Shown: in pieces, positions 18,094 through 64,000 of the stretch | Position numbering within the stretch: position 1 is the stretch's first letter | Layout: each line of letters begins with the position of its first letter | Assembly (NCBI GenBank): GCA_026982695.1 | Contig: JALSGS010000034.1 | Coordinates: 62,001-126,000 of the forward strand | Reading direction: 5' to 3' | Length of the DNA: 64,000 nt | DNA from: Saprospiraceae bacterium | Lineage (GTDB): Bacteria; Bacteroidota; Bacteroidia; Chitinophagales; Saprospiraceae | Program-made: the position numbers and the translations under genes | Notes under the pieces: generated by a model | The model's database searches: none | Told to the model about the DNA's origin: nothing | The model's input: the letters and a program-made list of their open reading frames with translations, nothing else

Positions 18094-19212
18094 TCACACA
18101 CCCAACATCACAGGCATGACTAACATGAGAATGGACTCATTTTCAGGCTGGGCAATAGGCACCAAAATACCTGCTCGAGTAGGGTTTGACAACTCCATGC
18201 GCACTTCCTCACTGTCCAACACACTTAGCATCTCAATCAAAAACTTGGCATTAAACCCAATTTCTAATGGCTCACCTTCATAAGTACAGGGAAGCTGTTC
18301 CGTAGCTTCATTGGAAAAGTCCAAATCTTGTGTAGAAATGGTAAGGCTATCGTTGGCAATGCTGAACATCACCTGATTGGTTGTCTTGTTGGCATAAATG
18401 GCAATGCGCTTGAGTGAACTTAGCAAGTCTTGCCTGTTTACAGTAAGCTTATTTGGATTATCGATAGGAATAACAGCTTGATAGTCGGGATATCGAGCAT
18501 CAATTAGGCGAACCGAAAAATAAGTATTATCAAAAGAGAAAAAAGCATTGGTGCGGTTGAATTGTATACGTACTTCTGTATCTGCAGGTAAATCATTTTT
18601 AAGCAGGCTCAATGATTTTTTGGGCACAATGAACGAGGCAGATACCTGACTTTCCATCTGCTCAAAGGTATATTTCACCAATTTGTGCGCATCTGTAGCC
18701 ACGAAGGTGATACTGTTAAAATCAATCTCAAAAAACACCCCATTCATAGCTGGACGAAGCTCATCATTGCTAGTAGCAAAAAGCGTACGACTTATCCCAC
18801 GTAAAAGCACATCCGACGGCATGACCACCTCATCTACTTCCGTGGGCTCAGGTACTTGTGGATAGTCGGCTCCATCTTCACCAGCTAAACGGTACTTGCC
18901 AAACGACGAGGTGATTTCCACACCCAAATGCTCTGGATGTACGGAAATAGTAATGGGTTGCTCGGGAAGCGCTTTCAAAGTGTCGAGTAAAATTTTGGCA
19001 GGAATGGCGACTGTACCTGCTTGATCTGCAGCTTGTACACTGAGTACAGCGCGAATGGTGGTTTCCAGATCACTTGCTGTAATGCGCAATTCGTTTCCTT
19101 CAAGCTCAAAGAGAAAATCTTCAAGTATGGGCATCGACGCATTGGACGCTATGGCACCCGCAGCCTTTTGAAGCTCGCGCAAAAGCGCCACAGAAGAAAC
19201 AGTAAACTTCAT
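18094..19212 (-). CDS. dnaN: DNA polymerase III sliding clamp, beta subunit
   Basis: The ring-shaped processivity factor, 372 residues from MKFTVSSVALLRELQ. Three repeated clamp domains can be followed (starting near residues 1, ~125 and ~245), with the conserved AMNGVFFEI, ARYPDYQAVIP and C-terminal lipophilic peptide-binding segments (ESILMLVMPVML). The position is unusual relative to model organisms: dnaA and recF are not adjacent, and the putative origin lies about 40 kb away. Two exact minus-strand TAnnTTTG boxes lie 65-91 bp upstream. Confidence 0.96.
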   Translation of the reverse strand: MKFTVSSVALLRELQKAAGAIASNASMPILEDFLFELEGNELRITASDLETTIRAVLSVQAADQAGTVAIPAKILLDTLKALPEQPITISVHPEHLGVEITSSFGKYRLAGEDGADYPQVPEPTEVDEVVMPSDVLLRGISRTLFATSNDELRPAMNGVFFEIDFNSITFVATDAHKLVKYTFEQMESQVSASFIVPKKSLSLLKNDLPADTEVRIQFNRTNAFFSFDNTYFSVRLIDARYPDYQAVIPIDNPNKLTVNRQDLLSSLKRIAIYANKTTNQVMFSIANDSLTISTQDLDFSNEATEQLPCTYEGEPLEIGFNAKFLIEMLSVLDSEEVRMELSNPTRAGILVPIAQPENESILMLVMPVMLGV

Positions 19213-19276
19213 AATCACCTTTCTATTCTAATGGGTTTCCTTAACATGCGCATCCCATGCACACTTTTTCTCATCG

Positions 19277-48671: not shown

Positions 48672-48680
48672 ACACAATCC

Positions 48681-49619
48681 ATGAATCGAGCAGGAATTAA
48701 AGTATTTGCGCCAGCTTCTATTGGTAATGTAGGCATTGGATTCGACCTGATGGGCATCGCATTGACACATCCCGGCGACGAAATTATAGCGCGTTTGGCC
48801 GCTTCCCCAGGCGTACGCATTACTGCGATCAAAGGGGCAAAAGGCCAGCTACCCTTCGAAGCAGTACGCAATACTGCAGGTAAAGCCGCACTTAGTCTGC
48901 TACAATACTTGGGTAAGGACAAAGAAATTGGCATTGAGCTCGAACTACATAAAAAAATGCCCTTTGGCAGTGGCTTGGGCTCAAGTGCTGCCAGTGCTGT
49001 AGCAGGAGCCATGGCAGTCAATGAATTGTTACAACGACCACTGGAAAAAAGAGACTTGCTGCGTTTTGCCTTAGCAGGTGAAACAATAGCCTCAGGTAGT
49101 CCACATGCCGACAATGTAGCCCCTTCTCTATTGGGAGGTATCATACTGGTACGCGATCACCAAAGTTTGGACTTTGTAAGATTACCCGTACCACCTGGTC
49201 TTTTTCTCGCTGTGGTCTATCCACACATTTCTATACGCACGCAAGAAGCTCGTGCTATACTGAAGCGCGAAATCCCCCTATCGCTACACACACGGCAAGC
49301 GGGCAATTTAGCTGCTTTTGTAGCTGCACTCTACCGAGGCGACTTAGAGCTACTGGCGCGTAGTCTCGACGATCAGCTCATCGAACCACAACGAGCTCAA
49401 CTTATTCCACACTTCTATGAAGCGAAGCGAGCTGCATTGCAGGCCGGCGCACTCGGATGCAGCATATCAGGTAGTGGGCCATCCATTTTCGCGCTCTGTC
49501 CCAATAGCCTAATCGCCGAACAAGCAGCTCATGCCATGCAAACTATTTTCACCGAAGCAAAAATCCAATCAGATAGCTATTGTTCACGCGTCAATATGCA
49601 AGGCGCATTCAAATACTGA
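48681..49619 (+). CDS. thrB: Homoserine kinase
   Basis: 312-residue GHMP kinase phosphorylating homoserine. FAPASIGNVGIGFDLMG at the N terminus, ATP loop PFGSGLGSSAASA (about 94-106) and the C-terminal GCSISGSGPSIFAL. It begins 9 bp after thrA and ends 8 bp before thrC. Confidence 0.96.
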   Translation: MNRAGIKVFAPASIGNVGIGFDLMGIALTHPGDEIIARLAASPGVRITAIKGAKGQLPFEAVRNTAGKAALSLLQYLGKDKEIGIELELHKKMPFGSGLGSSAASAVAGAMAVNELLQRPLEKRDLLRFALAGETIASGSPHADNVAPSLLGGIILVRDHQSLDFVRLPVPPGLFLAVVYPHISIRTQEARAILKREIPLSLHTRQAGNLAAFVAALYRGDLELLARSLDDQLIEPQRAQLIPHFYEAKRAALQAGALGCSISGSGPSIFALCPNSLIAEQAAHAMQTIFTEAKIQSDSYCSRVNMQGAFKY

Positions 49620-49627
49620 ATACCCAA

Positions 49628-50944
49628 ATGAAGCTATACAGCACGAACAATTGCAAGCACATCGCCTCTTTAGAAGAAGCGATTTTCCGCGGGCTTCCGC
49701 CCGACAACGGCCTGTATATGCCCCAGCATATTCCTCAGTTGCCCACAGATTTCTTCGAACACCTGCCCGAACAGTCATTCCAGCAAATTGCCGTGACGGT
49801 TAGTCATGCACTCTTCGGAAAAGCTATTCCGCTGCCCGATATCGAGCGCATTGTCAATCGCGCACTCAACTTTCCCGCTCCCGTAATTTCACTCAATTCC
49901 GACACTCATGTACTGGAATTGTGGCACGGCCCTTCCTTAGCGTTTAAAGACTTTGGCGCGCGCTACATGGCTGCGCTGATGAGTTGGTTTTTGCAACGAC
50001 GCGCTGCACAAACCGTCATTTTAGTCGCTACATCTGGCGATACAGGGGGAGCTGTAGCTGCAGGTTTTTACGATACACCCGGTATTCACGTAGTCATACT
50101 CTACCCTTCGGGCAAGGTCAGCCCACTTCAAGAAAAACAACTCACCACATTGGGGAAAAACATCAGCGCGTTAGAAATCGAAGGTACCTTTGACGATTGC
50201 CAAGCACTGGTCAAGCAAGCATTCTTAGATGAAGAGTTGCGCCAATACATTTCCCTCAGTTCGGCCAACTCGATCAATATCGCCCGACTCATTCCACAAT
50301 CTTTCTATTACTTCGAGGCATACAAACAGCTTATGCCCACACATAAGCCCGTGATATTCGTCGTGCCTTCAGGCAACTTTGGCAATCTCACTGCAGGCTT
50401 GATCGCGCAAAAAATGGGCCTACCTGTGGCCCATTTCGTGGCTGCGACCAACGCTAACGATGTAGTGCCTCAATACTTACACAGTGGGGTATTTACACCT
50501 CGCCCATCTATTCCCACCATATCCAACGCGATGGATGTGGGTAACCCATCAAACTTCTACCGCATGCTCGACTTATTTGGTTCCACGTGGAACAATTTGC
50601 GCAAGACAGTTTCGGGCTTTGCCTTCAACGACGAGCAAACTCTTCAGGCGATCCGAGAAATTTACAGACAATACGGTTACCTCATGGATCCTCACGGTGC
50701 TGTGGGGTATTTGGCGTGGAAGGCCTACCAAAGCCGAAATCCCGGAACCCAAGGAGTCGTTTTAGCTACCGCGCACCCAGCCAAATTTTTAGAAACCATG
50801 ACTCAAACTCTGGGTAAAGCCATAGAAATTCCTGACAGATTAGCCCAATTAGCATGTAAAGAGAAAAAATCCACCGTCCTACCTGCAGCATACGACGCTT
50901 TTAGGCAATGGCTCGAATTGAAATTCAAAAAAAACAAGACATGA
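49628..50944 (+). CDS. thrC: Threonine synthase
   Basis: PLP enzyme converting O-phosphohomoserine to threonine. 438 residues from MKLYSTNNCKHIASLEEAI; conserved PPDNGLYMP, the PLP-lysine region GPSLAFKDFGARYM, LVATSGDTGGAVA, and FVVPSGNFGNLTAG. The internal ATG at 49628 matches the family start. Its TGA stop overlaps the ATG of mvaD (ATGA), implying translational coupling. Confidence 0.96.
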   Translation: MKLYSTNNCKHIASLEEAIFRGLPPDNGLYMPQHIPQLPTDFFEHLPEQSFQQIAVTVSHALFGKAIPLPDIERIVNRALNFPAPVISLNSDTHVLELWHGPSLAFKDFGARYMAALMSWFLQRRAAQTVILVATSGDTGGAVAAGFYDTPGIHVVILYPSGKVSPLQEKQLTTLGKNISALEIEGTFDDCQALVKQAFLDEELRQYISLSSANSINIARLIPQSFYYFEAYKQLMPTHKPVIFVVPSGNFGNLTAGLIAQKMGLPVAHFVAATNANDVVPQYLHSGVFTPRPSIPTISNAMDVGNPSNFYRMLDLFGSTWNNLRKTVSGFAFNDEQTLQAIREIYRQYGYLMDPHGAVGYLAWKAYQSRNPGTQGVVLATAHPAKFLETMTQTLGKAIEIPDRLAQLACKEKKSTVLPAAYDAFRQWLELKFKKNKT

Positions 50945-52026
50945 CCTACGAAAACCCCAAACTCATCTTAGCCCATTCCGCACTCAGAGAAGGGAGCATA
51001 ATGTGGAAAAGCCCTTCCAATTTGGCCATCGTCAAATATTGGGGCAAACACGGCCAACAGTTGCCCAAAAATCCTTCCCTGAGCCTCACACTCGATACTT
51101 CTTTCACGCAGACAAAACTGCACTATGCACCGAGAAAGGTGGCAGGGCAAGACATTTCGCTATCCCTCCTTTTTGAGGGTCAACCTCATGAAGGTTTCGC
51201 ACAGCGCGTGAAGCAGTTTTTTCGTAAAATACTGCCCATTTTTCCTTTTCTCAAGCAACTGGATTTAACGGTCGAAACACAAAACTCCTTTCCCCACTCT
51301 TCGGGCATAGCATCTTCCGCATCAGCCATGAGCGCACTAGCACTTTGTTGTTGTAGCATGGAAGACGAGTTTTTTGGCACGCTAGATGAAGACGAAGTTT
51401 TTGACCGCAAAGCTTCGTATGTAGCTCGACTCGGCTCGGGCAGCGCTTGCCGATCAATCTATCCTTATTGGGCACTTTGGGGCGAAACAGGGGAAGTGCC
51501 GGGCAGCTCTAACTTGTACGCCGTTCCAATGGCAGAAGCGGTACATCCCGTGTTTCACACCTTACACGACGATATTCTCATTATCCGATCAGGAACCAAG
51601 CAAGTGTCAAGCAGTGCGGGGCATTCGTTAATGCAAAACCATCCCTTTGCCGAAGTGCGCTACCAACAAGCGCGTAAAAATCTATATGAATTGATCAACG
51701 CCCTGCGCACTGGTGATTTGGAAGCATTTGGAAAAGTTGCAGAAAAAGAAGCTCTGATGCTCCACAGCCTCATGATGAGTGCTCCCTCTCCATATATTTT
51801 AATGGCACCACATACCATTACCGCTATAGAACGCGTTTGGGCTTTCCGAAAGGAAACGGGACACCCCGTGTTTTTCAGCCTCGATGCTGGGCCCAATCTC
51901 CATGTGCTTTATCCCGAAACAATTATTCACGAAGTGCGACCCTTTGTCGACACACAACTCGCCCCACTCTGTGAAGAAAGCATATACCTGCAAGATTGGG
52001 CCGGCGAAGGCCCCGAACAACTCTAA
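50941..52026 (+). CDS. mvaD: Diphosphomevalonate decarboxylase
   Basis: 361-residue GHMP enzyme, last step of the mevalonate route to isopentenyl diphosphate. KSPSNLAIVKYWGKHG, NPSLSLTLD, ATP loop FPHSSGIASSASAMSALAL and RLGSGSACRSIYPYWALW are diagnostic. The start at the ATGA overlap with thrC is preferred over the upstream ATG at 50908. No other mevalonate gene is in the window. Placement behind thrC is unusual; GGGPS at 39 kb is a possible downstream user of the isoprenoid. Confidence 0.95.
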   Translation: MTYENPKLILAHSALREGSIMWKSPSNLAIVKYWGKHGQQLPKNPSLSLTLDTSFTQTKLHYAPRKVAGQDISLSLLFEGQPHEGFAQRVKQFFRKILPIFPFLKQLDLTVETQNSFPHSSGIASSASAMSALALCCCSMEDEFFGTLDEDEVFDRKASYVARLGSGSACRSIYPYWALWGETGEVPGSSNLYAVPMAEAVHPVFHTLHDDILIIRSGTKQVSSSAGHSLMQNHPFAEVRYQQARKNLYELINALRTGDLEAFGKVAEKEALMLHSLMMSAPSPYILMAPHTITAIERVWAFRKETGHPVFFSLDAGPNLHVLYPETIIHEVRPFVDTQLAPLCEESIYLQDWAGEGPEQL

Positions 52027-52049
52027 AAACTGCACACGATTCTACTACC

Positions 52050-52583
52050 ATGAGATCACACAGCATCTTTATCTTTCTCAGCCTTGCCTTTTTGCTCACT
52101 CAGTGTTATGCGCAGAATTCTCCTAACAATTTGCCGCAAGTGCAAAACGAAGCTTTTAATCAAGAACTAAAACGCCTACTTAGCTTTTCAGTACCCCTCG
52201 TGGGTGTAGACGAGTTAGCCACTATCCAAAAAAAGGCTGTTCTGCTCGATGCCCGAGCAGAAGAAGAATACCAAACAGCACACATTCCAGGTGCCCGATT
52301 TGTCGGTTACGAGCAATTGCAACTCGACGAGGTATTCAAGCTGCCCAAAGACACGACCATCGTGGTATACTGCTCAGTAGGTTATCGAAGTGAGCGAGTA
52401 GCCGAAAAGCTAAAAGCAGCTGGCTTTCAAAAAGTGTACAACCTCTACGGCGGCATCTTTGAATGGGCTAACAAAGGGTTTCCCCTTGAAGACGCTGCCA
52501 AACGTCCTACAAACCAACTGCACACCTACAATAAACGGTGGAGCAAGTGGGTCGAAAATCCACAAATAAAAAAGCAATGGTAA
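52050..52583 (+). CDS. Secreted rhodanese-like protein
   Basis: 177 residues with a signal peptide (MRSHSIFIFLSLAFLLTQCYAQ) and one rhodanese domain: LLDARAEEEYQTAHIPGA and the active-site loop VYCSVGYRSERVA with the catalytic Cys. The Cys in LTQC is not in a good lipobox. Periplasmic sulfur transfer or redox binding is possible; substrate unknown. It starts 23 bp after mvaD and may be the last gene of the thr transcript. Confidence 0.85.
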   Translation: MRSHSIFIFLSLAFLLTQCYAQNSPNNLPQVQNEAFNQELKRLLSFSVPLVGVDELATIQKKAVLLDARAEEEYQTAHIPGARFVGYEQLQLDEVFKLPKDTTIVVYCSVGYRSERVAEKLKAAGFQKVYNLYGGIFEWANKGFPLEDAAKRPTNQLHTYNKRWSKWVENPQIKKQW

Positions 52584-52654
52584 CTCAGTACAGCAAAGGC
52601 GACAGCTTGACCTTGCTGGCTGCTCCGAAAATCATTTTCAGCCATCGTGCCACC

Positions 52655-52676
52655 TGAGAAAATCCAAAATTTCTCA
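52655..52676. terminator. Weak hairpin between convergent rhodanese and GT2 genes
   Basis: TGAGAAA (52655-52661) and TTTCTCA (52670-52676) form a 7 bp stem with an 8 nt loop, 72 bp after the rhodanese stop. It is AT-rich without a clear U-tract. Confidence 0.35.
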
Positions 52677-52738
52677 CCCCCCTTCTACCTACTATCCGAA
52701 TTGATCCGCACTCAAAGACGGGCACAAGTTGCACAGAC

Positions 52739-53701
52739 TTATGATGAGTGATGCGAGCCGCCATAAACACGGCGCACGCGGTAAGGACGCTTATCCTGAG
52801 ATTCGAAATAAGTCCGCATCTGGATTTCCACTATAATGCCGAAAGTGACTAACTGTATACCCGCCACCACCAACATGAGAGCAAGTATGAGCAAGGGCTT
52901 ACCCCAGATGTCTTGCCCCATCAACTTCAAGACTCCTAAATACAAGTTGATCAATACTCCTACACTAAAAAGCACAATTCCCCATATGCCAAATAGATGC
53001 ATGGGACGCTGCATATACTTTTTAAAAAAGAGCATTAGCAACAAATCACTTACTACTTTGAATGTGCGTCCCAAGCCATATTTCGATTGCCCAGCTACTC
53101 GCGGATGATGACGCACAGGCACTTGTGTAATTCGCGCGCCTTCAAGGTAGGCCAATACGGGAATGAAGCGATGCAATTCGCCATATAGGCCCATGCTCTT
53201 GGCTATTTCAGCGCGAAATACTTTGAGTGCACAGCCGTAATCCTTCATGTGTACACCACTGAGCTTTCGAATAATCCAATTGGCAATGCGACTTGGAAGC
53301 TTGCGCAGCAATACATCATCCTGCCTATTAATGCGGATGCCTGCCACCAAATCCCAGTCGCCCTTCTTAGCAATATCTAACATCATGGGAATATCAAAAG
53401 GATCATTCTGTAAGTCCCCATCCAATGTCACAATATAAGTGCCAGTGGCATAGTCAATGCCAGCCATGAGCGCAAGACTCTGACCGTAGTTCTTTCTTAG
53501 TTCAATGATTTTCAACCACTTAAAACATAAACTCTTAAGCACATCCAAAGTGCCATCGGTAGAGCCATCATCTACATATATGAGTTCAAAATTGAATGAG
53601 GCCAGGGCTTCTTCAATGCGCGATACGAGGGGGGCCACGTTGGCCTCCTCATTATACACAGCTACCACGACGCTAATTTCAGGGCAAGTACGTTCAGTCA
53701 T
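52739..53701 (-). CDS. Family 2 glycosyltransferase (polyprenyl-phosphate type) with two TM helices
   Basis: 320 residues from MTERTCPEISVVVAVYNEEANV; the Met at 53719 is the alternative. GT-A domain with YVDDGSTDGTLD, TLDGDLQNDP (the DxD-type site) and KDYGCALKVFR, followed by two C-terminal helices (~230-300). This is the GtrB/ArnC/DPM1-like layout, which makes polyprenyl-phosphate sugars on the inner leaflet. It overlaps the 3' end of the GT39-like gene by 8 bp, so the two probably act in sequence: sugar loading, then periplasmic transfer. Confidence 0.9.
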   Translation of the reverse strand: MTERTCPEISVVVAVYNEEANVAPLVSRIEEALASFNFELIYVDDGSTDGTLDVLKSLCFKWLKIIELRKNYGQSLALMAGIDYATGTYIVTLDGDLQNDPFDIPMMLDIAKKGDWDLVAGIRINRQDDVLLRKLPSRIANWIIRKLSGVHMKDYGCALKVFRAEIAKSMGLYGELHRFIPVLAYLEGARITQVPVRHHPRVAGQSKYGLGRTFKVVSDLLLMLFFKKYMQRPMHLFGIWGIVLFSVGVLINLYLGVLKLMGQDIWGKPLLILALMLVVAGIQLVTFGIIVEIQMRTYFESQDKRPYRVRRVYGGSHHSS

Positions 53702-55355
53702 CAACTCTATCTTGGACATTCAGCAAAGGTCCAACGTACATGGTACGCCGGCCATGACGAATTTTAAACTCAGATTGCAGCTGCAAAGGAACGCGATAAA
53801 GAGAAGTATCCACAATATACCAGCCAAATTCTCCCGGCACATCGTTCCGCTTCACTATTTGCCCCGTATGAGCCGACAAATAAAAAGAATTAGTTGCGGG
53901 AATCCAGGTCTGCTTGTAAAGCCATAGAGGCTGCTTAGCGGCCGATGCTTTCTGAGCTGTCTCGATTGTAGTAGCACGCACAACTGTACCCCAATCCTCT
54001 CGCAATCTATCGGGCAAGACAAACCAATCAAACCCCAAACGCACTACCAGTAACAATACCACTAAAGCAGGCACTTGAGTGCGTGCTGGCTTTCGCCAAA
54101 TATGCACCGACACCCACACACAAAGGCCGAACAAGATCAACGATTTGGCTATGCGCCATTCTATTTGTGCCAGTCGTTGAGGCATAAAAAGTGGGAGCAA
54201 GGCACCTACACAAGCAAGTACAGCAAAAAGACGCCACACCGCAGCGACCCCTTTGCCGTAAGGCGAATGTTCAACACGCGTTTGGGTATACAAATGGGCA
54301 AAGGGCAAAAACAACAACGGCAAGAACATGAGCAGGTAGCGCGGATATACCTCTACTGAAGCCCAATAAACCCAGATATTGGCCATAAAAACCACTACAA
54401 AATAGCGCATCAGGCGATGCGCCCAAAGCTGCTGCAATGCACCTGGAGCTAAAAGCAACAAACTCATCAATGACCAAGGAAAAAAGTGATAGACCATCTC
54501 AAAAGGGAAAGTAAAGAGATGAATTAGTGTTTTACCCAGTCCGTATTGCACAGCTGTTCGTTTAGCGGATTCTGCAAAAAGCCGTTCGAGCAAAGGTACT
54601 AAAGGCGCCTGTTGGGCATAGGCATAGTAATAGCTACCCAAAGCAACAACTGCCATAAATAAACCAATTCCGTTGGGCAAAGAAATGCCACGCCGCAGCA
54701 TGGTGCCCCATGCTCCCTTCCACGAAAAAGATTGCTCATAGGCTTGCAGTGCAAGACTGGCAGCTAAGGTAAATACCTGAAAAACCAACGCAGGTAATCC
54801 CTTCAACATAAAAGCAATGACAGTAAGGCTCCACGATCCGATAAACATCCACCACCATTGCTGCCGCTCCGTCCAATGAAAAATCCACAGGAAATTGGCA
54901 AATACGACGAGCGAAAAGCAAATATCGATAAGCCCTAAAAGCGAATCCCAAAACAAAATACGCCCGCAAGTAACCACCATAGCTGCTACCCAAAGGGCCT
55001 GATAGCGCGGTACAAAGCGCTGCAAATACACGACACATAATGCGGCATACAACAGCAAAAATACCAGTGTAGGTACGCGTGCTGCCCACTCATTGGGCTG
55101 GCCAAAAAGCCAAAAGGAAAAGGCCAATATCCAATTGTATAATGGCGGTTTGTTCAAATAAGGCTCGCCATTGATGGTAGGCACCACGTAATCACCCGAG
55201 AGCATCATCTCCAGTGCCACATTGGCTCGTATACCTTCATCGCCAATAAACGTCATTAGCCCCAAGTTGATGACTAAGGCAGGCAGCAACAACAAGCCTG
55301 CTAACCACCATAACTGATGAGGCTTGAGGTACAAATAATGCGCTATATTTTTCAT
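53694..55355 (-). CDS. Family 39 glycosyltransferase (ArnT-like membrane protein)
   Basis: 553 residues, about a dozen hydrophobic helices. The first periplasmic loop holds DEGIRANVALEM and the conserved LNKPPLYNW, as in ArnT/PMT-type transferases that use polyprenyl-phosphate sugars. Target (lipid A, protein or glycan) not determinable, although lpxK and a flippase are a few kb away. First gene of a two-gene operon with the GT2. An exact -7 box lies 21-28 bp upstream. Confidence 0.88.
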   Translation of the reverse strand: MKNIAHYLYLKPHQLWWLAGLLLLPALVINLGLMTFIGDEGIRANVALEMMLSGDYVVPTINGEPYLNKPPLYNWILAFSFWLFGQPNEWAARVPTLVFLLLYAALCVVYLQRFVPRYQALWVAAMVVTCGRILFWDSLLGLIDICFSLVVFANFLWIFHWTERQQWWWMFIGSWSLTVIAFMLKGLPALVFQVFTLAASLALQAYEQSFSWKGAWGTMLRRGISLPNGIGLFMAVVALGSYYYAYAQQAPLVPLLERLFAESAKRTAVQYGLGKTLIHLFTFPFEMVYHFFPWSLMSLLLLAPGALQQLWAHRLMRYFVVVFMANIWVYWASVEVYPRYLLMFLPLLFLPFAHLYTQTRVEHSPYGKGVAAVWRLFAVLACVGALLPLFMPQRLAQIEWRIAKSLILFGLCVWVSVHIWRKPARTQVPALVVLLLVVRLGFDWFVLPDRLREDWGTVVRATTIETAQKASAAKQPLWLYKQTWIPATNSFYLSAHTGQIVKRNDVPGEFGWYIVDTSLYRVPLQLQSEFKIRHGRRTMYVGPLLNVQDRVDD

Positions 55356-55375
55356 AAGATTGTGGAAAATTGGCG

Positions 55376-55383
55376 CAAAAATA
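55376..55383 (-). promoter_or_regulatory. Candidate -7 box for the GT39-GT2 operon
   Basis: Minus-strand TATTTTTG matches TAnnTTTG exactly, predicting a leader of about 15 nt. Confidence 0.55.
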
Positions 55384-55422
55384 GAGAAAGCCCTTTCGAT
55401 CGTTTTCCTAAATCCACATCAT

Positions 55423-56076
55423 ATGCACACTTGCAGCACTGGAAAAGAAAAGCCAATAGCCCTATTTTCAAAGACATTTTTGTTGATATGCAGCTTCTTT
55501 GCAACAAGTGCACATGCACAAATCCACACCGCACCCGATGGGTGGAAAGAATTGCACAATTCGGAGTGTATCCGCCTCGATATTCGCTATGCCACTGCGC
55601 ACAACTTCACCAAAAAGAAAATATACCCTTGTGGCCGATGCTTCCTCAAGGAAGAAGCCGTTACAGCACTCAACCAAGTGGCACGGCAGCTCGAGCAGCA
55701 AGGATACGGCCTGCTGCTATTCGATTGCTATCGCCCTTTGCCTGCACAGTGGAAGCTTTGGGAAATCGTGTCCGATCCCCGCTACGTGGCTGATCCCAGA
55801 AAAGGCTCCATGCACAATCGAGGAATTGCCGTCGATCTCACCCTCTACGATCTGCATACAGGCAAAGCTATAGATATGGGCACACCATACGATTTCTTTG
55901 GTCCACAAGCCCATAGCAACTGTACAGACCTGCCCGAACAGGTACTTCAGCATCGAAAAATTTTGGCACAAGCCATGAAAAGTGCTGGATTTGAAGGTAT
56001 TGCCACAGAATGGTGGCATTTTTCTCTCCGACAAGTGCAAGCCCCTCTTGCACAATGGGAATGGATTTGCCCGTAG
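55423..56076 (+). CDS. D-alanyl-D-alanine dipeptidase, VanX/DdpX type (M15)
   Basis: 217 residues from MHTCSTGKEK, with a possible signal sequence ending ..FFATSAHAQ. Zinc site motif SMHNRGIAVDLTL (SxHxxGxAxD) and the second half EWWHF are both intact, as are FDCYRPLPAQWK and YPCGRCFL. It hydrolyses D-Ala-D-Ala; with a signal peptide it would act in the periplasm on peptidoglycan fragments rather than in vancomycin resistance. No vanH or vanA-like gene is present. The Met at 55360 is less likely because it would overlap the divergent promoter region. Confidence 0.9.
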   Translation: MHTCSTGKEKPIALFSKTFLLICSFFATSAHAQIHTAPDGWKELHNSECIRLDIRYATAHNFTKKKIYPCGRCFLKEEAVTALNQVARQLEQQGYGLLLFDCYRPLPAQWKLWEIVSDPRYVADPRKGSMHNRGIAVDLTLYDLHTGKAIDMGTPYDFFGPQAHSNCTDLPEQVLQHRKILAQAMKSAGFEGIATEWWHFSLRQVQAPLAQWEWICP

Positions 56077-56114
56077 GCCTTTGGGCAAACGCATGGCACA
56101 AATATTGAATCAGC

Positions 56115-56144
56115 TTGGACGCATCCACACAATGCATATATTTG
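56115..56144 (+). promoter_or_regulatory. Candidate promoter of the MoxR gene
   Basis: TTG (56115-56117), 19 nt, then TATATTTG (56137-56144): both halves of the Bacteroidota consensus with good spacing. The predicted leader is about 100 nt and includes a short hairpin CAGATG-CAAAA-CATCTG. Confidence 0.6.
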
Positions 56145-56250
56145 CTCGTTGCACGTACAGATGCAAAACATCTGCACCAACATAGCGTTGGGTCTAAGCA
56201 ATAAGATTCCCCTATAATTTTCTTCAACTACAATCCGAACCCAAAAGACG

Positions 56251-57222
56251 ATGAGTCAGACCACGTTTAAATCAGATGTAGAGGCCGTAGATGCACTGGC
56301 ACAATCGTACAAAGATCTCAAGGCAGAAATAGGCAAAGTAATCGTAGGACAAGATCAGGTGGTCAAAACTGTGATTATCTCGCTATTCAGCAATGGCCAT
56401 AGCTTGCTCGTAGGTGTACCAGGACTAGCCAAGACGCTATTAGTTAGTACAATTGCCGAAGTACTAGATTTGGACTTCAAACGCATTCAATTTACTCCTG
56501 ATCTAATGCCTTCCGACATTACAGGATCGGAGATCCTGGATGAAGACCGTCATTTTCGATTCAATAAAGGGCCACTGTTTGCCAACATCATCCTGGCCGA
56601 TGAGATCAACCGTACTCCACCAAAAACTCAGGCAGCGCTGCTTGAAGCTATGCAAGAACGCGCCGTCACAGTAGCGGGTACACGGCACCCTTTACCCGAA
56701 CCTTTCTTCGTATTAGCTACACAAAACCCCATCGAGCAAGAAGGTACTTATCCACTGCCAGAAGCTCAGCTCGACCGCTTTATGTTCAATATCCCACTGG
56801 ACTACCCCTCTTATAAAGAAGAGGTAGAGATCGTCAAGCAAACCACTGTGCTTAAAACACATACGCTCAAGCACGTACTTACCGGCCCGGAAATTCTCAA
56901 CTTTCAAAAGGTCATTCGCAAGGTACCGGTATCAGATCACGTATTGGAATATGCCGTCTCCTTAGCCGTCAAAACACGTCCCAACACGCCTCAGGCTACC
57001 GAAGTGGTTAATAACTACATCTCTTGGGGTGCAGGACCTCGCGCATCGCAATATTTGGTATTAGGTGCTAAATGCCATGCAGCCATTAATGGAAAATATG
57101 CGCCGGATGAGGAAGATGTACAAGCAATTGCACCCTATGTCCTGCGACATCGCATTGTGCGCAATTACAAGGCTGAGGCAGAAGGTATTAGTGAAGAAGA
57201 TATCATCAAAAGCCTATTTTAA
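56251..57222 (+). CDS. MoxR-family AAA+ ATPase
   Basis: 323 residues. Walker A GVPGLAKT, Walker B ILADEINR, the MoxR-specific QFTPDLMPSDITG, sensor 1 ATQNPIEQEGTYPLPEAQLDRFMF and a helical lid domain. MoxR proteins assist assembly of partner proteins with von Willebrand A domains (DUF58, BatA/BatB). None of those partners follows here; the next gene is convergent ctaA. The 178 bp downstream gap (57223-57400) shows no gene. Confidence 0.93.
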   Translation: MSQTTFKSDVEAVDALAQSYKDLKAEIGKVIVGQDQVVKTVIISLFSNGHSLLVGVPGLAKTLLVSTIAEVLDLDFKRIQFTPDLMPSDITGSEILDEDRHFRFNKGPLFANIILADEINRTPPKTQAALLEAMQERAVTVAGTRHPLPEPFFVLATQNPIEQEGTYPLPEAQLDRFMFNIPLDYPSYKEEVEIVKQTTVLKTHTLKHVLTGPEILNFQKVIRKVPVSDHVLEYAVSLAVKTRPNTPQATEVVNNYISWGAGPRASQYLVLGAKCHAAINGKYAPDEEDVQAIAPYVLRHRIVRNYKAEAEGISEEDIIKSLF

Positions 57223-57400
57223 GCCCATTATTTTCCCTCAGCAGAGAAGCACGGTGAGGTGTCCCTTAGCATCAGGATAGGTGCCAATATCTACAGCTAC
57301 TCGACATGCCACTAGCTACCTTATCTCGCTACCTCGGAGTAGGTTGTGCAGTGCTCATACTGCTCCCTTTTCGAGGGTACCCACACAACTGCCTCAGTCG

Positions 57401-58489
57401 TCACTGCGATTGGTCAGGTACATCGCTAAGTGTGTAACTCAAAAATAGCGCAGCAGCTAAAGTGAGTAGTGCACCACCTTGGTGCACTACCCCCCAAAAC
57501 ACTGGTACGCGACCCACACAATTGATTACCGTAATGATGCCCAAGCTAAACTGTACGATCAACATGCCATATAACCATCGGCTACGCTCCGCTAACAACA
57601 TAGGGGCTTGCAAGCGACGCAACTTTACATGCCAAATAGCTGCAAACACCAACAAGCCCCACGCCATAGCACGGTGCAGCAATTGCACAACAGCTTTTAT
57701 GGCCCTAGCAGGTTCATAATCGACAAAACGCTGCCAGTGTAAGTCAGATGTAGTAGTAAGTGCCTCCCAAAAAGCACTGCCGCGAATGAAAAGGGGGAAA
57801 TGCGGATGGATTAGCCCCGCACGCATGCCTGCCATCAAACCACCTAAAGCAATTTGAGCGCCTATCAAGCTTACCACTAACCACGCCAAACGCCGAAAGT
57901 ATGGCTGCTTTGGGAAACGCACAGCTGGTGGCCTTGCCGCCAATAGCCATGTCCAAAATAGATAGCCAAATAGTATAGTGGCTATCGACAAGTGTATGAC
58001 TAACTTGTAGGCACTGACCCATGTACGCTGATCATTGTGCAGCCCACTTTTGACCATGATCCATCCAAATACAGCAGCCAATGACGCCAACAGAATCACT
58101 ATAGCTAAGCGCTTTAAAAGCCACTTTGGCAACAGATTTTTCCAAAAAAACCACAAAAAAGGCAACATGAATACAACCCCCATTAGGCGTGCCCACAACC
58201 GGTGCACATATTCCCAGAAGTATATGTACTTGAATTCTTGTAAGCTCATACCCCGATGAAGTGTCTCATACTGCTTGCGAGCGGCTTCCTTGTACTTAGC
58301 AAACGCTTCTTCCCATTCAGCTGTGCTTAGAGGTGGCAGTGTCCCCTGAATAACTGCCCATTCTGTAATGGAAAGTCCCGAATCCGTAAGCCGAGTGATA
58401 CCACCAAGCACTACTTGGAAAAAGACCATGATGACGCCAGCCAACAGCCAAATGCGGACAGCACGAGGAAGTGGTTTAAATGTAGACAT
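57401..58489 (-). CDS. ctaA: Heme A synthase (COX15/CtaA)
   Basis: About 362 residues with eight hydrophobic helices in two related four-helix halves. GGITRLTDSGLSITEW in the first half and conserved His in EYVHRLWARLMG and QLLHRAMAWGLL are the haem ligand regions; NCVGRVPVFWGVVHQGGALL is near the end. It oxidises haem O to haem A for cytochrome oxidase, implying aerobic respiration. The start is at MSTFKPL; MAHTMST (58501) is possible. ctaB is not adjacent. An exact -7 box lies 101-108 bp upstream, inside the putative origin region. Confidence 0.93.
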   Translation of the reverse strand: MSTFKPLPRAVRIWLLAGVIMVFFQVVLGGITRLTDSGLSITEWAVIQGTLPPLSTAEWEEAFAKYKEAARKQYETLHRGMSLQEFKYIYFWEYVHRLWARLMGVVFMLPFLWFFWKNLLPKWLLKRLAIVILLASLAAVFGWIMVKSGLHNDQRTWVSAYKLVIHLSIATILFGYLFWTWLLAARPPAVRFPKQPYFRRLAWLVVSLIGAQIALGGLMAGMRAGLIHPHFPLFIRGSAFWEALTTTSDLHWQRFVDYEPARAIKAVVQLLHRAMAWGLLVFAAIWHVKLRRLQAPMLLAERSRWLYGMLIVQFSLGIITVINCVGRVPVFWGVVHQGGALLTLAAALFLSYTLSDVPDQSQ

Positions 58490-58589
58490 CGTATGTGCCA
58501 TTTAAACTATCTATAATTTACGGCAAACGGCACAAGCACGCTTCGCAATATTGCACATCGTTGTGTCGTCTACCTCAAGTTGGGGCTTG

Positions 58590-58597
58590 CAAAGGTA
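58590..58597 (-). promoter_or_regulatory. Candidate -7 box for ctaA
   Basis: Minus-strand TACCTTTG matches TAnnTTTG exactly, predicting a leader of about 95 nt. Confidence 0.45.
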
Positions 58598-58844
58598 TGT
58601 GCTTTGCAATTCTGAATAATGCTACGTTTTTGTTTGTTCCTCATACCACCAAGTTGTGCTTACTCATTCGGCTACATAATGAATGTAGTTTTTTTTAATA
58701 AAAAGATCAACATCGTCACTAAGACTGTGAATTGGTGAGTAAAAAATAGCTGCAACCTTTGCAAAAATGAAACCGTGTATAAATGGGTCCAATTTTCACA
58801 TGACTTACACAGTCTACTCTACTAAAAATCAGACAAATGGCATT

Positions 58845-58853
58845 TTATACACA
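58845..58853 (+). other. DnaA-box match
   Basis: TTATACACA fits the TTATnCACA consensus exactly; it lies near the middle of the putative origin. Confidence 0.6.
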
Positions 58854-58981
58854 CTGGCGAGGATAAGTGTACTTTTGAAAATTTTTTTGTGATCTTACTG
58901 GGCATAACCTTGATCTTTCAAGGTGAAAGAGTGGTAGTAAGTTTGGAAAAATCCCGACTTCTTGTCCAAAAGCTCTTTACT

Positions 58982-58990
58982 TGTGAATAA
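58982..58990 (-). other. DnaA-box match
   Basis: TTATTCACA on the minus strand, an exact TTATnCACA match in opposite orientation to the site at 58845. Confidence 0.6.
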
Positions 58991-59242
58991 GTACACTTTT
59001 TTCCCCGACTACATCCACAACTTGGCGTGAAGATTTTTTGTGTCACATCGCTGATTTTCATCGCACCATTGAGCGAAAAAAATTGGATGTGGAAAGAGAT
59101 GGACGAACCAATTTGTTCCTTTTGAAGAGGTATTTTGTTGTGAGCAGTGGAATTGAAAAATGTGAATACCTTGAAAGACAAATCATTGAGTAGTACACGT
59201 ACAACAAAGTGTACACCTCTAACCAACAAAAGAAGGTAACAA

Positions 59243-59935
59243 ATGTGTGGTAGATTATCCTTTGTAGCAAGTAAAAACCAAATAGAGCAAGCGTTGCCCT
59301 TTGTAGAGATACCTCCTCACTTGCGTATCAGCTACAACATTGCACCTAATCAGCATACTTACGTAGTGGCCAATGATACACCTACTCGCTTGCAAAACAT
59401 TGCATGGGGGTTGGTACCTTCTTGGTGGAACGGAACACATAAGCCAGTACGGCCGATCAATGCACGTGCAGAGGGCATTGCAGCCAAACCTTCCTTTCGC
59501 ATTCCCATACGCAAGCAGCGGTGTGTGGTGTTGGCTGATAGCTTTTACGAATGGCGCAAATCGGGGAGGCGCAAATTGCCTTATCGCGTTTTTGCGCGTG
59601 ATGGCAGATTGCTGCTGATGGGAGGGATCTGGGACATATGGCATCAGGCGGGGAGTAGCTATCCACACAAGAGTTTTGCCATTGTTACGACAAGTGCTAA
59701 TAAGGAACTCTCCTATCTACACGATCGCATGCCTTTTTTGTTGCTCAGTACCGAACAGGTCCAGTTATGGCTATCAGATCTACCACTTGAAGAGGTGCTT
59801 GCCATGTTGCAACCAGCACCTGATGGTTGGTTGCGCATGTATCGAGTCAGTGATCAAGTCAATAACTACCAATTTGATGACCCCACTTGTCATGAACCTG
59901 TACCTGAAGATCGCGACCTGTTTTCACAAACTTAG
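59243..59935 (+). CDS. yedK: SOS response-associated peptidase family (SRAP, YedK/HMCES type)
   Basis: 230 residues. The N terminus MCGRLSF exposes the catalytic Cys2, which forms a thiazolidine link with abasic sites in single-stranded DNA. Supporting motifs are YNIAPNQ, WGLVPSWW, INARAEG, DSFYEW with the conserved Glu and HDRMPFLL. It protects abasic sites at replication forks; its position beside the putative origin is noted without functional claim. G/T-rich coding strand, unlike plus-strand genes to the left. Its stop overlaps that of convergent lpxK by 4 bp. Confidence 0.95.
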   Translation: MCGRLSFVASKNQIEQALPFVEIPPHLRISYNIAPNQHTYVVANDTPTRLQNIAWGLVPSWWNGTHKPVRPINARAEGIAAKPSFRIPIRKQRCVVLADSFYEWRKSGRRKLPYRVFARDGRLLLMGGIWDIWHQAGSSYPHKSFAIVTTSANKELSYLHDRMPFLLLSTEQVQLWLSDLPLEEVLAMLQPAPDGWLRMYRVSDQVNNYQFDDPTCHEPVPEDRDLFSQT

Positions 59936-60999
59936 ACTTTGAAGTCGAGTAGGAATTGTTTAATACGTGCATCAAAATGGGCTCCTTGATCGAATAGAAA
60001 ACTTACCTCTACAGGTAGCACAAAAATGGGTAGCTGCTTTTCAAGTATAAACTGGCGATGCAGCTCGAGGCGTACGGCATCTTTTTCGGTAGTGATTATG
60101 AGGTGGGGTTTTGGAGTGCGTACTCGAAATAGTCGATCGAGTTGCCCCATGTCGTAATTGCTGAAATAGTGGTGGTCGGCAAAGGTGAATGTGATTGCAC
60201 TTTGCACTTGTGCTTCCAAATATTGGAGCAGATAGTCTGTATTGGCTATAGCTGAGAGGAGTACTACGTGAAGATGCGGTTGCAAGCTAATGCGTTGTTG
60301 AGGATTGAATAGGTAATAGGGCGAGCCATAGCGATAAGTACTGAAAAACAGCTGTTGATGAGGGGATAGTTTTAATTCTTTTTCAAAGAATGAGGCATCT
60401 GATGGTGAGAGGGAGGCGGGGCACTTGGTAGCAATTACGATATCTGCACGCTGTGAAGCACATGGCCATTCGCGCAGACGCCCCACAGGCAAAAGCCAAT
60501 CGCGCGTCCAAGGTCGGTTGTATTCGGTGAGCAAAATATTGAGCCCAGGTTTTACAGCTCTGTGCTGATAGGCATCATCCAAGAGGATTACTTGCAATTC
60601 CGGATGTGATTTGAGCAGCTGAGGAATGGCCAACGCGCGTTCTTCTGCTACTGCGACGACCACTTGGGGAAATTTTCGCTTGTATTGAAGCGACTCATCC
60701 CCGACTGTACGCGCATTGTCACGAGCGGAAACAATGCGAAAGCCACGTGTTTGGCGTTTGTATCCTCTGCTCAAGATACCCACTTGAAGGTAAGGATGCA
60801 GCAGGCGAATGAGGTATTCTACATGAGGCGTTTTGCCCGACCCGCCTACTGAGAGGTTGCCCACTGCGATAATGGGCAAGTCGAACTGTACACTTTTTAA
60901 CAATCCGCGATCCCAGGCCAATTGATACAAATAGGATCCCAGGCCATAAAGCAGAGAAAAGGGAAAGAGCAATACGCGCAATAACCAACTCTGTACCAT
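59932..60999 (-). CDS. lpxK: Tetraacyldisaccharide 4'-kinase
   Basis: Phosphorylates the lipid A precursor at the inner membrane. 355 residues from MVQSWLLRVLLFPFSLLYG, the N-terminal membrane helix; P-loop GNLSVGGSGKTPH follows (~47-59), then LSRGYKR, VGDESLQYKRKFP, LLDDAYQHR and TTEKDAVRL. The ATG at 60999 is preferred over 61008 because an exact -7 box (61006-61013) covers the latter. It indicates a lipid A-containing outer membrane. Third gene after the flippase and DUF2851 genes on the same strand. Confidence 0.95.
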   Translation of the reverse strand: MVQSWLLRVLLFPFSLLYGLGSYLYQLAWDRGLLKSVQFDLPIIAVGNLSVGGSGKTPHVEYLIRLLHPYLQVGILSRGYKRQTRGFRIVSARDNARTVGDESLQYKRKFPQVVVAVAEERALAIPQLLKSHPELQVILLDDAYQHRAVKPGLNILLTEYNRPWTRDWLLPVGRLREWPCASQRADIVIATKCPASLSPSDASFFEKELKLSPHQQLFFSTYRYGSPYYLFNPQQRISLQPHLHVVLLSAIANTDYLLQYLEAQVQSAITFTFADHHYFSNYDMGQLDRLFRVRTPKPHLIITTEKDAVRLELHRQFILEKQLPIFVLPVEVSFLFDQGAHFDARIKQFLLDFKV

Positions 61000-61005
61000 A
61001 GTACG

Positions 61006-61013
61006 CAAAGGTA
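61006..61013 (-). promoter_or_regulatory. Candidate -7 box directly before lpxK
   Basis: Minus-strand TACCTTTG matches TAnnTTTG exactly, but only 6 nt separate it from the ATG at 60999. If used, the transcript would be leaderless or nearly so; chance occurrence is possible. Confidence 0.3.
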
Positions 61014-61029
61014 CAAGCTCGCACTTTTA

Positions 61030-62298
61030 TCAGAGCAGATTGGCGCCAATGGCACATTCGAGGCATCGGAAATTTTGGCAGTACTTGTTGTGCAGTTCAA
61101 TAAGGGCTTGAGAGTCGAAGGCTGATTGTGCGTGCATGCCTATCTGATGCCATTGACGTATCAGCCGATTGCGTTCAGCTGGTAGCTCCATGAGCCATTG
61201 TAAAGCCCGTTTTTGCAAACGAGTATCGTCCTTGTACTTTCCATATACGAAAAGAAAGGGTGCAAGCCCGTTGATGATGAGTAAGTGCAGCATGGCTTTG
61301 CCCGGTTTGCCAATTTGTTTTGGGGCAGTAGTATCAAATGTATAATGCGTCTGCCACCATTCGGAGACTTCTACTTGTAGTAGTTGAGCCAAATCAGCTA
61401 TACTTTTCGCTTCTGCAAAGTGGCGAAAAAGAGGATAGACATTTACGACAAGTGCTGCTAGCTGGGCAATGCGCAAGGTGGGAAAGTTGAGTGGGCGCAT
61501 GCGCATAAATTGCCACATGCCAGGGGGCATAGGCTCCAATTGGTGTTTCTTTTGTAGAAACCGGTATTCGCGTTGTAAGTGCAGCGGATAATCTTCATCA
61601 AATCGACGAGTTAACAATCCTGCTTGGCCAAAGAGCAGTGCCTCCACTTGCAAGGGTGCATGTCGGTAATGGGCCAGCAAGCGAAGAGGAGCTACCCGAC
61701 CTAGCCACTCGAATGCAGCTGCATTGTGTTTGGTGCCCCATGCACGCAATAACCACTGGTAAAAGGCTTCTTCCCAATCCGAATGGGTGTAGACAAGCAA
61801 AGATTCAATGTGCGTTGCTCGCGTTTCGAGACGCGCTACAGCCATCCGTTCTATCCATGCAGTGCGTATAAGGGAGGAAACTTGAGGCAATTGTGCAGCA
61901 CAGGGGATCCAACCTTTATGGTGCATTAACTGGTAATACTTGTCAACAAGTGAGTGGTGTAAGCGCCTTTGTAATTCCAAAGTGGGAATGGGCTGGCCAT
62001 GAGGGTCGTAAATGGGTGCATCAGCAGTATGTACTACGTGTAAAATGACGTTTTGGTAGCGCGGATCGTTTTGGTGGTTGTGCTTGAGCCAATCGGAAGC
62101 GCGTACGTGTATTTCCACATTTCCGGCCCATAATGTACGGTCAATTCGAATTCGGGCATTGAAAAAATCGGGACCTTGATGGGTGGTATTGTGCTGCCCA
62201 GGGTGAATGATGTACAATGGCTGACCATCCGTAGTGCATAGCTCGGTATGGTCAAAACGACGCGTCCGCCATGCAAAATGGAGCAGGTCTTCTTTCAT
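61030..62298 (-). CDS. DUF2851 family protein
   Basis: 422 residues, soluble. Starts MKEDLLHFAWRTRRFD and contains GQHNTTHQGPDFFNARI, WAGNVEIHVRASDW and NVILHVVH, the conserved N-terminal block of DUF2851, whose Asp/Glu pattern recalls nuclease-like folds (inference). Four Cys close together at the C terminus (YCQNFRCLECAIG) could bind metal. Function unknown. It lies 28 bp after the flippase and 30 bp before lpxK. Confidence 0.85.
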   Translation of the reverse strand: MKEDLLHFAWRTRRFDHTELCTTDGQPLYIIHPGQHNTTHQGPDFFNARIRIDRTLWAGNVEIHVRASDWLKHNHQNDPRYQNVILHVVHTADAPIYDPHGQPIPTLELQRRLHHSLVDKYYQLMHHKGWIPCAAQLPQVSSLIRTAWIERMAVARLETRATHIESLLVYTHSDWEEAFYQWLLRAWGTKHNAAAFEWLGRVAPLRLLAHYRHAPLQVEALLFGQAGLLTRRFDEDYPLHLQREYRFLQKKHQLEPMPPGMWQFMRMRPLNFPTLRIAQLAALVVNVYPLFRHFAEAKSIADLAQLLQVEVSEWWQTHYTFDTTAPKQIGKPGKAMLHLLIINGLAPFLFVYGKYKDDTRLQKRALQWLMELPAERNRLIRQWHQIGMHAQSAFDSQALIELHNKYCQNFRCLECAIGANLL

Positions 62299-62326
62299 GG
62301 TTTTAGGTGTTGGAAAGGAAATCAGA

Positions 62327-63808
62327 CTAACCGCGCCAGTAGCGCACGAGTACTTGGCGATCGGCTAACCAGGCTATTGCCAAAAATAGCAATAACAACA
62401 AAGAGTGTAAAGCCAAACGAAGCCCCATAGAGATAGCCCATACCTGTCTGAGCCACTGCATCAGGCATACGAGCAATATGGTGAGCAGCAGATAACCACT
62501 CATGCGTGCCCATCGGTAAGGTATAGGATAAAAACGCCGACCCACCAGATAGCAACTACCACTCATAAGAGTATAGCACACCAGCGCTGCCCAGGCCGAA
62601 GCAGCATAACCTATTTGCGGAAGTAAAAACCAATTGGCAGCAAATGTGATAAGGGCACCACCTGTAGCAATTCCTGCTCCATAGGTTGTTTGATCCGTTA
62701 ACTTGTACCAAATAGATAGATTGTAGTAAAGACCTAGCATGAGATAGGCGAATAATAGTATAGGTACTAAGTGGATGGCTTGGCGAAATTGGGCGCCCAA
62801 CAGATGCTGTACGATTTCCATCCATCCTGTAATACCTAATAAGAGCACACAGGCTGCAAGTGTAAAGGCATGGGCAACATCTGCGTAGATCATGCGCGCA
62901 TCTGTGCGCGAAGAATGACTGAAAAAGAAAGGCTCAGCCGCAAAGTTGAAAGCCACTGCAAAGAGGTTCATTAGTAGGGCCAATTTTGCCGCAGCAGCAT
63001 ATACACCAGCTTGCGATAGGTTGTGCCACACATCCCCGCTGAGGCGCCACTTTTGGATCGGGATGGCTATCGACTGATTAACTACCCCAGCAAGCCCTAC
63101 GATCACCAATGGCCAAGCATAAGCAATCATCTGCTTCCACAGCGTGTGGTGGAAGTGAAGTCGTATTTGCCGAAAGGCTGGTAATAGTAAAAGTAACGTG
63201 AAAAGACTCGCCAAAAGGTTGGAAAGAAACACGTAATAAAGCCGCTTAGATGGATCATAAAAATTGGCCCAACTGTATCCGGCTTCTTGAAGACGGGGGC
63301 ACAGCTCAAGGAAAAATATTACCCATCCGATATTTACTACAATATTGATCACCTTGAGCATTGCGAAGCGGCCTGGTCTATTCTCCAACCGAAGGCGAGC
63401 AAAGGGCAACGCCGCCAAAGCATCGCTGGCTAAAATAAGCGCGAATAATTGAACATATACTGCTTTATCAGCATAGGCCAACCAGGAGGCAATGGCATCG
63501 CTATAGTACCATGCTATAGCGACGAATATTGTGGTACTGATCAGAATGGAGATAACAGCTGTGCTAAATACGGCCGTTCGTTGAGCTGTCTTACTCCCAA
63601 ATCGGAAGAAAGCCGTTTCCATGCGATATGTGAGCAAAATGAGTAGTAAGGCTGCCCATGCATAGAGGTCATTGTACACCCCAAACTCTGTTCGGCTTAG
63701 TACGCGCGTTAAGTAGAAGGTGAGCAATACGTAGTGTAAGATCCTCCCTAAGATATGACTGATGCCATATATAGCCGTTTGGCCAGCTAGCTGTTTGACA
63801 AAAGACAT
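62327..63808 (-). CDS. Polysaccharide/lipid-linked oligosaccharide flippase (Wzx-like)
   Basis: 493 residues from MSFVKQLAGQTAIYGISHIL, with 12-14 hydrophobic helices of the MOP superfamily. The N terminus, including LTRVLSRTEFGVYNDLYAW, and the PFARLRLENRPGRFAMLKV loop are typical of the PST/Wzx family. It exports a lipid-linked glycan across the inner membrane; the glycan is not identifiable. It heads the flippase-DUF2851-lpxK transcript. Confidence 0.88.
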   Translation of the reverse strand: MSFVKQLAGQTAIYGISHILGRILHYVLLTFYLTRVLSRTEFGVYNDLYAWAALLLILLTYRMETAFFRFGSKTAQRTAVFSTAVISILISTTIFVAIAWYYSDAIASWLAYADKAVYVQLFALILASDALAALPFARLRLENRPGRFAMLKVINIVVNIGWVIFFLELCPRLQEAGYSWANFYDPSKRLYYVFLSNLLASLFTLLLLLPAFRQIRLHFHHTLWKQMIAYAWPLVIVGLAGVVNQSIAIPIQKWRLSGDVWHNLSQAGVYAAAAKLALLMNLFAVAFNFAAEPFFFSHSSRTDARMIYADVAHAFTLAACVLLLGITGWMEIVQHLLGAQFRQAIHLVPILLFAYLMLGLYYNLSIWYKLTDQTTYGAGIATGGALITFAANWFLLPQIGYAASAWAALVCYTLMSGSCYLVGRRFYPIPYRWARMSGYLLLTILLVCLMQWLRQVWAISMGLRLALHSLLLLLFLAIAWLADRQVLVRYWRG

Positions 63809-63831
63809 GGGCATCCATGTGTTTGAACCCG

Positions 63832-63839
63832 CAAAGCTA
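63832..63839 (-). promoter_or_regulatory. Candidate -7 box of the flippase-DUF2851-lpxK operon
   Basis: Minus-strand TAGCTTTG matches TAnnTTTG exactly, 23-30 bp upstream of the start. Confidence 0.5.
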
Positions 63840-63951
63840 ATCGAAGAATTCGATCAGAGTTAGGAGAAAGAGCTTTTTATCGGGTTGAGAAAAGCTGTAA
63901 TTTGGGCCCTGTTCTTTAGATGTTTTGCTTTTTTACACGGTAACAGGCCAT

Positions 63952-64000
63952 ATGGTTAACCTCGAATTACTCAAGCAAATTTGCGAAACGCCCGGAGCAC
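63952..64000 (+). CDS. Start of an M42-type metallopeptidase (partial)
   Basis: An ATG at 63952 opens a frame running off the right edge. The 16 residues MVNLELLKQICETPGA match the N terminus of M42 aminopeptidases (glutamyl aminopeptidase/endoglucanase M family), where ETPGxPGxE is conserved. Too short for certainty; an M20 peptidase is the alternative. Confidence 0.55.
   Translation, partial: MVNLELLKQICETPGA

Follow-up and report, generated by a model that had tools for sequence, protein, structure and literature searches.

A predicted chromosomal replication origin between divergent ctaA and SRAP genes in a Saprospiraceae bacterium

Bacterial replication origins commonly lie beside dnaA, but this adjacency is not a requirement, and oriC is difficult to place in draft genomes of lineages in which dnaA is not its neighbour. 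The excerpted Ori-Finder and DoriC papers (PMC10225481, PMC6323995) describe origins marked by a minimum of the GC disparity, a cluster of DnaA boxes and an intergenic position; the locus reported here resembles them in all three and differs in having no dnaA neighbour, its usual neighbour in Saprospiraceae being ctaA. For the unwinding element itself, the closest described system is the BUS, whose search definition in the excerpted text combines a box-to-trio spacer of at most 16 bp with a middle adenine, and in which box-bound DnaA seeds an oligomer on the trios of the adjoining 5' tail, opening the duplex (PMC8287927). As far as the excerpts of the BUS papers extend (PMC8287927, PMC6669920, PMC10721633), the core that we describe shares with BUS its tandem boxes, short spacer, at least three middle-A trios 5' of the boxes and an A/T tract, and departs from it in trio type: the commonest BUS trio is 3'-GAT-5', whereas trios 2 and 3 in Saprospiraceae are mostly 3'-TAC-5' or 3'-TAT-5'. 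The titles and abstract beginnings that we covered hold no description of an origin in Saprospiraceae, and the excerpted genome paper of Haliscomenobacter hydrossis (PMC3156403) does not mention oriC; an earlier database prediction, for example in DoriC, is quite possible.

We analysed a 64-kb stretch, hereafter the window (C34:62001-126000), of a 3.84-Mb Saprospiraceae draft genome in 61 contigs, and judge from its sequence that the 741-bp spacer between the divergent genes ctaA and SRAP is very probably the chromosomal replication origin. An earlier note on this DNA had proposed a probable origin at this place, and the proposal is supported by skew, by DnaA boxes, by relatives and by a blind match to a core model. 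The spacer and its flanking genes are as follows.

58502-59242, no strand assigned: predicted oriC region, the spacer between divergent ctaA and SRAP (skew minimum, 2 exact DnaA boxes, homologous spacers)
57401-58501, minus strand: ctaA (COX15-CtaA, heme A synthase family; PF02628, E 3e-77)
59243-59935, plus strand: SRAP (SOS response-associated peptidase family; PF02586, E 8e-61)

For gaps between open reading frames of at least 100 aa, the spacer is indeed the largest gene-free stretch of the window, as the note had stated, and it keeps that rank even when an internal 103-aa reading frame with a TTG start is counted; longer ORF-free stretches exist elsewhere in the genome. The internal frame (58918-59229) has no Pfam match and was rejected as a hidden gene. 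No Rfam match at gathering score was found in 50000-64000 and no tRNA gene in the window, repeats in the spacer comprise only short two-copy families, and a promoter and terminator scan of 58400-59300 was uninformative, with one promoter-like site (1.7 in shuffles) and one terminator-like site (0.6 in shuffles). The note's remarks on replication genes also hold: dnaN lies 40 kb away (18094-19218), and dnaA, whose product matches three DnaA Pfam domains, is on another contig (C33:157533).

Plus-strand GC skew within the window is -0.110 to the left of the spacer and +0.083 to its right, and over the window and the next 20 kb the cumulative skew reaches its minimum at 58854, inside the spacer. 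The negative-to-positive shift that the earlier note had read from four hand counts of 60-base lines is therefore borne out, and the counts themselves are exact on recount. The note was also right that the bias is independent of coding direction, since its sign is the same on each side whatever the strand of the gene: skew is negative in each of the 13 left-hand genes that were checked, which lie on both strands, and positive in the four right-hand ones, if weakly so in SRAP (+0.021) and the last gene (+0.013) and more strongly in LpxK (+0.145) and DUF2851 (+0.136). Along the 406-kb contig C34, three of three samples to the left of the window are negative and eight of eight to its right are positive, so that sample signs are consistent over 120 kb leftward and 285 kb rightward.

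Across the genome, we sampled skew in 117 stretches on 61 contigs, which with the window amount to about a quarter of the genome, and counted as clear a switch from below -0.03 to above +0.03. Of the other contigs, 23 were sampled at more than one place, and none of them has a clear minus-to-plus switch; the skew minimum elsewhere that the note had named as a refutation was thus looked for in these samples and not found. The nearest to a second switch is C2 (-0.011, +0.086, +0.112), and opposite, terminus-like changes occur in C21 (+0.073 to negative) and C44 (+0.043 to -0.076). Two small contigs were read whole. Because 20 contigs were sampled once, at their start (9 of the 20 negative), and 15 short contigs are fully masked with N (C1, C23, C25, C32, C35, C41, C42, C43, C46, C50, C51, C55, C57, C60, C61), a second switch could still lie in one of them or at a contig break.

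The spacer holds two exact matches to the DnaA box TTATNCACA, as claimed in the note, and four sites with one mismatch, more than the two near boxes that it had counted. The following were recognised by sequence match.

58845-58853, plus strand: DnaA box TTATACACA, exact TTATNCACA
58982-58990, minus strand: DnaA box TTATTCACA, exact TTATNCACA
58774-58782, minus strand: near DnaA box TTATACACG
59161-59169, minus strand: near DnaA box GTATTCACA, in a block conserved with the same-genus relative

Compared with 150 intergenic regions of at least 150 bp from the sampled DNA of this genome, the spacer has two exact boxes against an expectation of 0.014, and six sites of at most one mismatch against 1.05. 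The corresponding densities per kb are 2.7 against 0.019 and 8.1 against 1.4, so that the exact-box density, which the note had offered as a way to refute its proposal, is far above that of other sampled intergenic DNA. Genome-wide, TTATNCACA occurs at 109 places and its backward-read control pattern at 145, and the box is therefore not enriched as such. The two spacer boxes lie 137 bp apart, and among the 100 places listed, of the 109, no other pair is as close. Upstream of SRAP, the block TTGAAAAATGTGAATACCTTGAA (59153-59175) differs by one base from that of the same-genus relative, from which most of the remaining spacer has diverged; it may be the promoter of SRAP or a further DnaA site.

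Homologous spacers in relatives carry the same signal. We take the family to be Saprospiraceae, since the best named relatives mostly carry this name or that of Lewinella or Phaeodactylibacter, and the spacer of three genomes of the same family recurs in such records. Among 80 named loci, 35 have a SRAP gene divergent from ctaA and upstream of it (33 of 69 when only loci with over 1.5 kb of upstream sequence are counted), and these 35 loci, together with this genome and 13 further relatives with the pair, yielded 46 distinct spacers of 406-1089 bp after three duplicates were removed. They hold 71 exact TTATNCACA boxes in 31.9 kb, whereas 751 kb of flanks hold 72; the backward-read control pattern occurs 3 times in the spacers and 16 times in the flanks, and 200 Markov simulations of the spacers gave 2.3 boxes on average and at most 7. 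An unbiased ranking of 9-mers in the spacers is headed by TTTTCCACA, TTATCCACA and TCATCATCA. At least one exact box is present in 31 of the 46 spacers, and none in the other 15.

The comparison with relatives that the note had recommended also uncovered a core of about 55 bp common to these spacers, which, read in the orientation of the window, consists of an A/T tract, C-rich bases, TCATCATCAG, a G-rich spacer and TGTTAATATGTGGATAA; in outline, (T/C)AT repeats follow the A/T tract, and tandem DnaA boxes come after the short spacer. A core HMM trained on 43 relatives of the 46, with this genome excluded, scores at least 10 bits in 44 of the 46 spacers, of which the 43 training spacers match by construction, always in one orientation and 21-320 bp from the ctaA end; the relatives L186 and L194 score below 10 bits. 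No match of at least 10 bits was found in 961 kb of flanks.

Local skew in the relatives is less uniform. In 38 of the 46 spacers the SRAP side has the higher skew, and 25 of the 46 loci have their local cumulative minimum no more than 500 bp from the spacer, against about 11% expected. The eight spacers with the wrong sign, G006 being the worst, are evidence against a simple origin picture, and longer-range skew agrees with an origin at this place in G033 and G031 and is ambiguous in G017, G019 and G007. Local skew in relatives was accordingly dropped as sole evidence, being too noisy. In G006 (C22, about 169843-170418) core and spacer are present and the skew is reversed over 10 kb, with +0.030 on the left and -0.077 on the right, which suggests a rearrangement near the origin or a genome with weak skew.

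To find the core in this genome we used R1, a 65-position model built from 32 relatives and excluding both this genome and its genus mate. With 150 of 917 first-look candidates scored, its best match is C34:120692-120747, that is, 58692-58747 of the window (E 8.4e-4, 21.5 bits), and its only other listed match has E 0.35. In the window, a held-out nhmmer match of the core model gives 14.9 bits at 58692-58756. The element reads as follows.

58692-58747, plus strand: core unwinding element, BUS-like, with A/T tract, trio zone, spacer and tandem weak DnaA boxes (best match of R1)
58689-58701, plus strand: A/T tract on the ctaA side of the core (AT content; aligned in relatives)
58702-58722, plus strand: DnaA-trio zone, 3' to 5' AAT CAC TGC TAC AAC TAG AAA (phase and 3-nt spacer shared with relatives)
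58726-58742, minus strand: tandem degenerate DnaA boxes TTACTCACC and CAATTCACA (aligned with TGTTAATATGTGGATAA of relatives)

Read along the plus strand, the parts thus follow each other as 5'-A/T tract, trios, 3 nt, tandem boxes-3', with a middle A in six of the seven trios and a box-to-trio spacer of 3 nt. AT content in the spacer peaks at 0.72, in the bin 58682-58741 beside the tandem boxes; this A/T-rich zone is modest in this genome and clearer in relatives, and the A/T tract at 58689-58701 is likely the start of duplex opening (DUE). The boxes beside the trios are clearly recognisable in relatives; here TTACTCACC and CAATTCACA overlap by one base and are each two mismatches from TTATNCACA, and the same-genus relative retains CATCATCATCATCAG. 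Since the trio phase is the same and the tandem boxes are two mismatches off, we read the core of this genome, from its sequence, as a degenerate copy, worn but in place.

With the reading anchored on a TGT, all 46 spacers could be read. The middle A is present in 96%, 93% and 91% of trios 1 to 3, whereas the two other phases have A in 0-9%; the mean number of in-phase trios is 3.54 of 5, against 0.30 and 0.35 in those phases. The core therefore has at least three in-register 3'-NAN-5' trios within 16 bp of a DnaA box, as in BUS. The consensus is not the 3'-GAT-5' of BUS, however: trio 1 is GAC in 20 and GAT in 10 of the 46 spacers, trios 2 and 3 are mostly TAC or TAT, which gives a family type of 3'-GAY-TAY-TAY-5', and this genome has no GAT trio.

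We then asked how far the core extends across Saprospiraceae. With 26 candidates scored per genome, R1 matches at E <= 0.001 in 133 of 199 genomes and leaves 66 without a match. The positions of both core and ctaA were listed for 117 genomes; in 113 of them, at most 32 of which can be R1 training sequences, the distance from the core to ctaA is 12-555 bp (median 141), with the core upstream and oriented as in the window, and its place is in this sense conserved in related genomes. The other four genomes (G009, G083, G183, G195) have the core on one contig and ctaA on another; in G009 and G195 the ctaA gene sits at the end of its contig. A ctaA match exists in G147, G163, G208, G220 and G232, its place being outside the matches listed, and no ctaA match at E <= 1e-20 was found in 11 core-bearing genomes of the family, where the core therefore has another neighbour. 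Weak cores upstream of ctaA occur in G007 (E 0.005) and G011 (E 0.015); other genomes without an R1 match may have a more diverged core or a different origin. A smaller search had given a match at E <= 0.1 in 34 of 37 family genomes, the best match being upstream of ctaA in 27.

In the relative G104, a single contig of 7.5 Mb, seven of seven samples to the left of the core are negative and seven of seven to the right are positive, and the skew across the core itself passes from -0.055 to +0.051. In G099, five of five left samples are negative and the single right sample is +0.067. R1 also matches, at E <= 0.01, in 17 of 20 genomes of another family of the same order. There, on the 2.85-Mb contig of G055, the match falls at 1330402, where the skew passes gradually from negative to positive, with a local minimum 15 kb from the core and one far sample (1.8 Mb) slightly negative. 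The neighbours of the core outside Saprospiraceae are nadA in G055 (L267), nadA and a cytidylyltransferase-like gene in G056 (L269), a gene of the latter kind nearby in G040 (L268), and neither in G045 (L266). Judged by its start, the cytidylyltransferase-like gene reads as nadD-like, and the origin seems, from these sequences, to have changed neighbours between families of the order.

Observed directly are the switch in skew, the enrichment of boxes and a core whose position, orientation and phase are conserved; on this footing we regard the spacer as an ordinary oriC that lies apart from dnaA, in surroundings not familiar for an origin. Its less usual points are those surroundings, ctaA and often SRAP, and its trio type. 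By analogy with the published BUS, DnaA would bind the spacer's boxes, the tandem pair at 58726-58742 among them, and from there would polymerise onto the plus-strand trio zone at 58702-58722, towards ctaA. It would then open the adjacent A/T tract, helicases would be loaded, and two forks would move away from each other, one passing through ctaA and the other through SRAP. Counting against an origin here are the degenerate core (21.5 bits, mismatched boxes and one trio without a middle A), the presence of only two exact boxes, a reversed or missing switch in some relatives, the 66 of 199 genomes without an R1 match and the 11 without ctaA.

DnaA can regulate transcription, and the spacer lies between divergent genes and has, adjoining SRAP, a block conserved with the same-genus relative; it could thus be a long divergent promoter or regulatory region whose boxes control ctaA or SRAP, with the skew switch a coincidence. 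We consider this very unlikely, given that the core keeps its place upstream of ctaA in genomes whose SRAP match lies at another locus (for example in G012, G013, G003 and G005), lies beside the SRAP gene in G034, where no ctaA match was found, lies away from both genes in other families, for example beside nadA, and coincides with the skew switch in G104.

Clusters of boxes that titrate DnaA, of the datA type, are possible in principle, and since dnaA is not adjacent to the spacer, the true origin might be elsewhere, for example near dnaA, with the spacer as a secondary cluster of this kind. The dnaA contig is positive in four of four samples, however, the dnaA end included, and on this ground we rejected an origin near dnaA. 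Moreover, the exact box nearest to the dnaA reading frame, among the 100 places listed of the 109, is about 4 kb away, and a titration site would not be expected at a skew minimum in particular; we hold this reading to be highly improbable. A draft in 61 contigs, and skew signs that vary among relatives at homologous loci, lend something to the idea that the switch marks a misassembly or the boundary of a recent inversion. This idea would leave the box enrichment, the conserved core and the shared position in relatives unexplained, and it sits poorly with sample signs that hold for 120 kb on the left and 285 kb on the right; we give it next to no weight.

If the spacer is the origin, a core model that finds it blind, together with the ctaA neighbour, provides a marker by which the origin can be located in a family that is known for the most part as draft genomes, with possible uses in estimating replication rates from metagenomes, in genome rotation and in minichromosome vectors, and the BUS layout is extended to a trio type unlike the usual GAT repeat. 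We see an even chance that the trio code 3'-GAY-TAY-TAY-5' is specific to the lineage of Saprospiraceae and neighbouring families and that ctaA has long adjoined the origin. Were this so, the core would be a one-hit marker for placing oriC in fragmented drafts, and the worn copy described here would show how far the trio code can decay while the origin stays put.

Two further observations concern other parts of this genome. An ORF-poor stretch at C44:1306-2180 (L126, G000) holds ten one-mismatch box sites, which are ten copies of the repeat GTGTGATTAAAA, five in each orientation; from its sequence, the array looks like a cluster of binding sites. Within the window, a run of plus-strand genes at 46215-52583 encodes an aspartokinase-homoserine dehydrogenase, a GHMP kinase that is probably a homoserine kinase, a threonine synthase, a mevalonate-diphosphate-decarboxylase-like protein and a rhodanese-domain protein.
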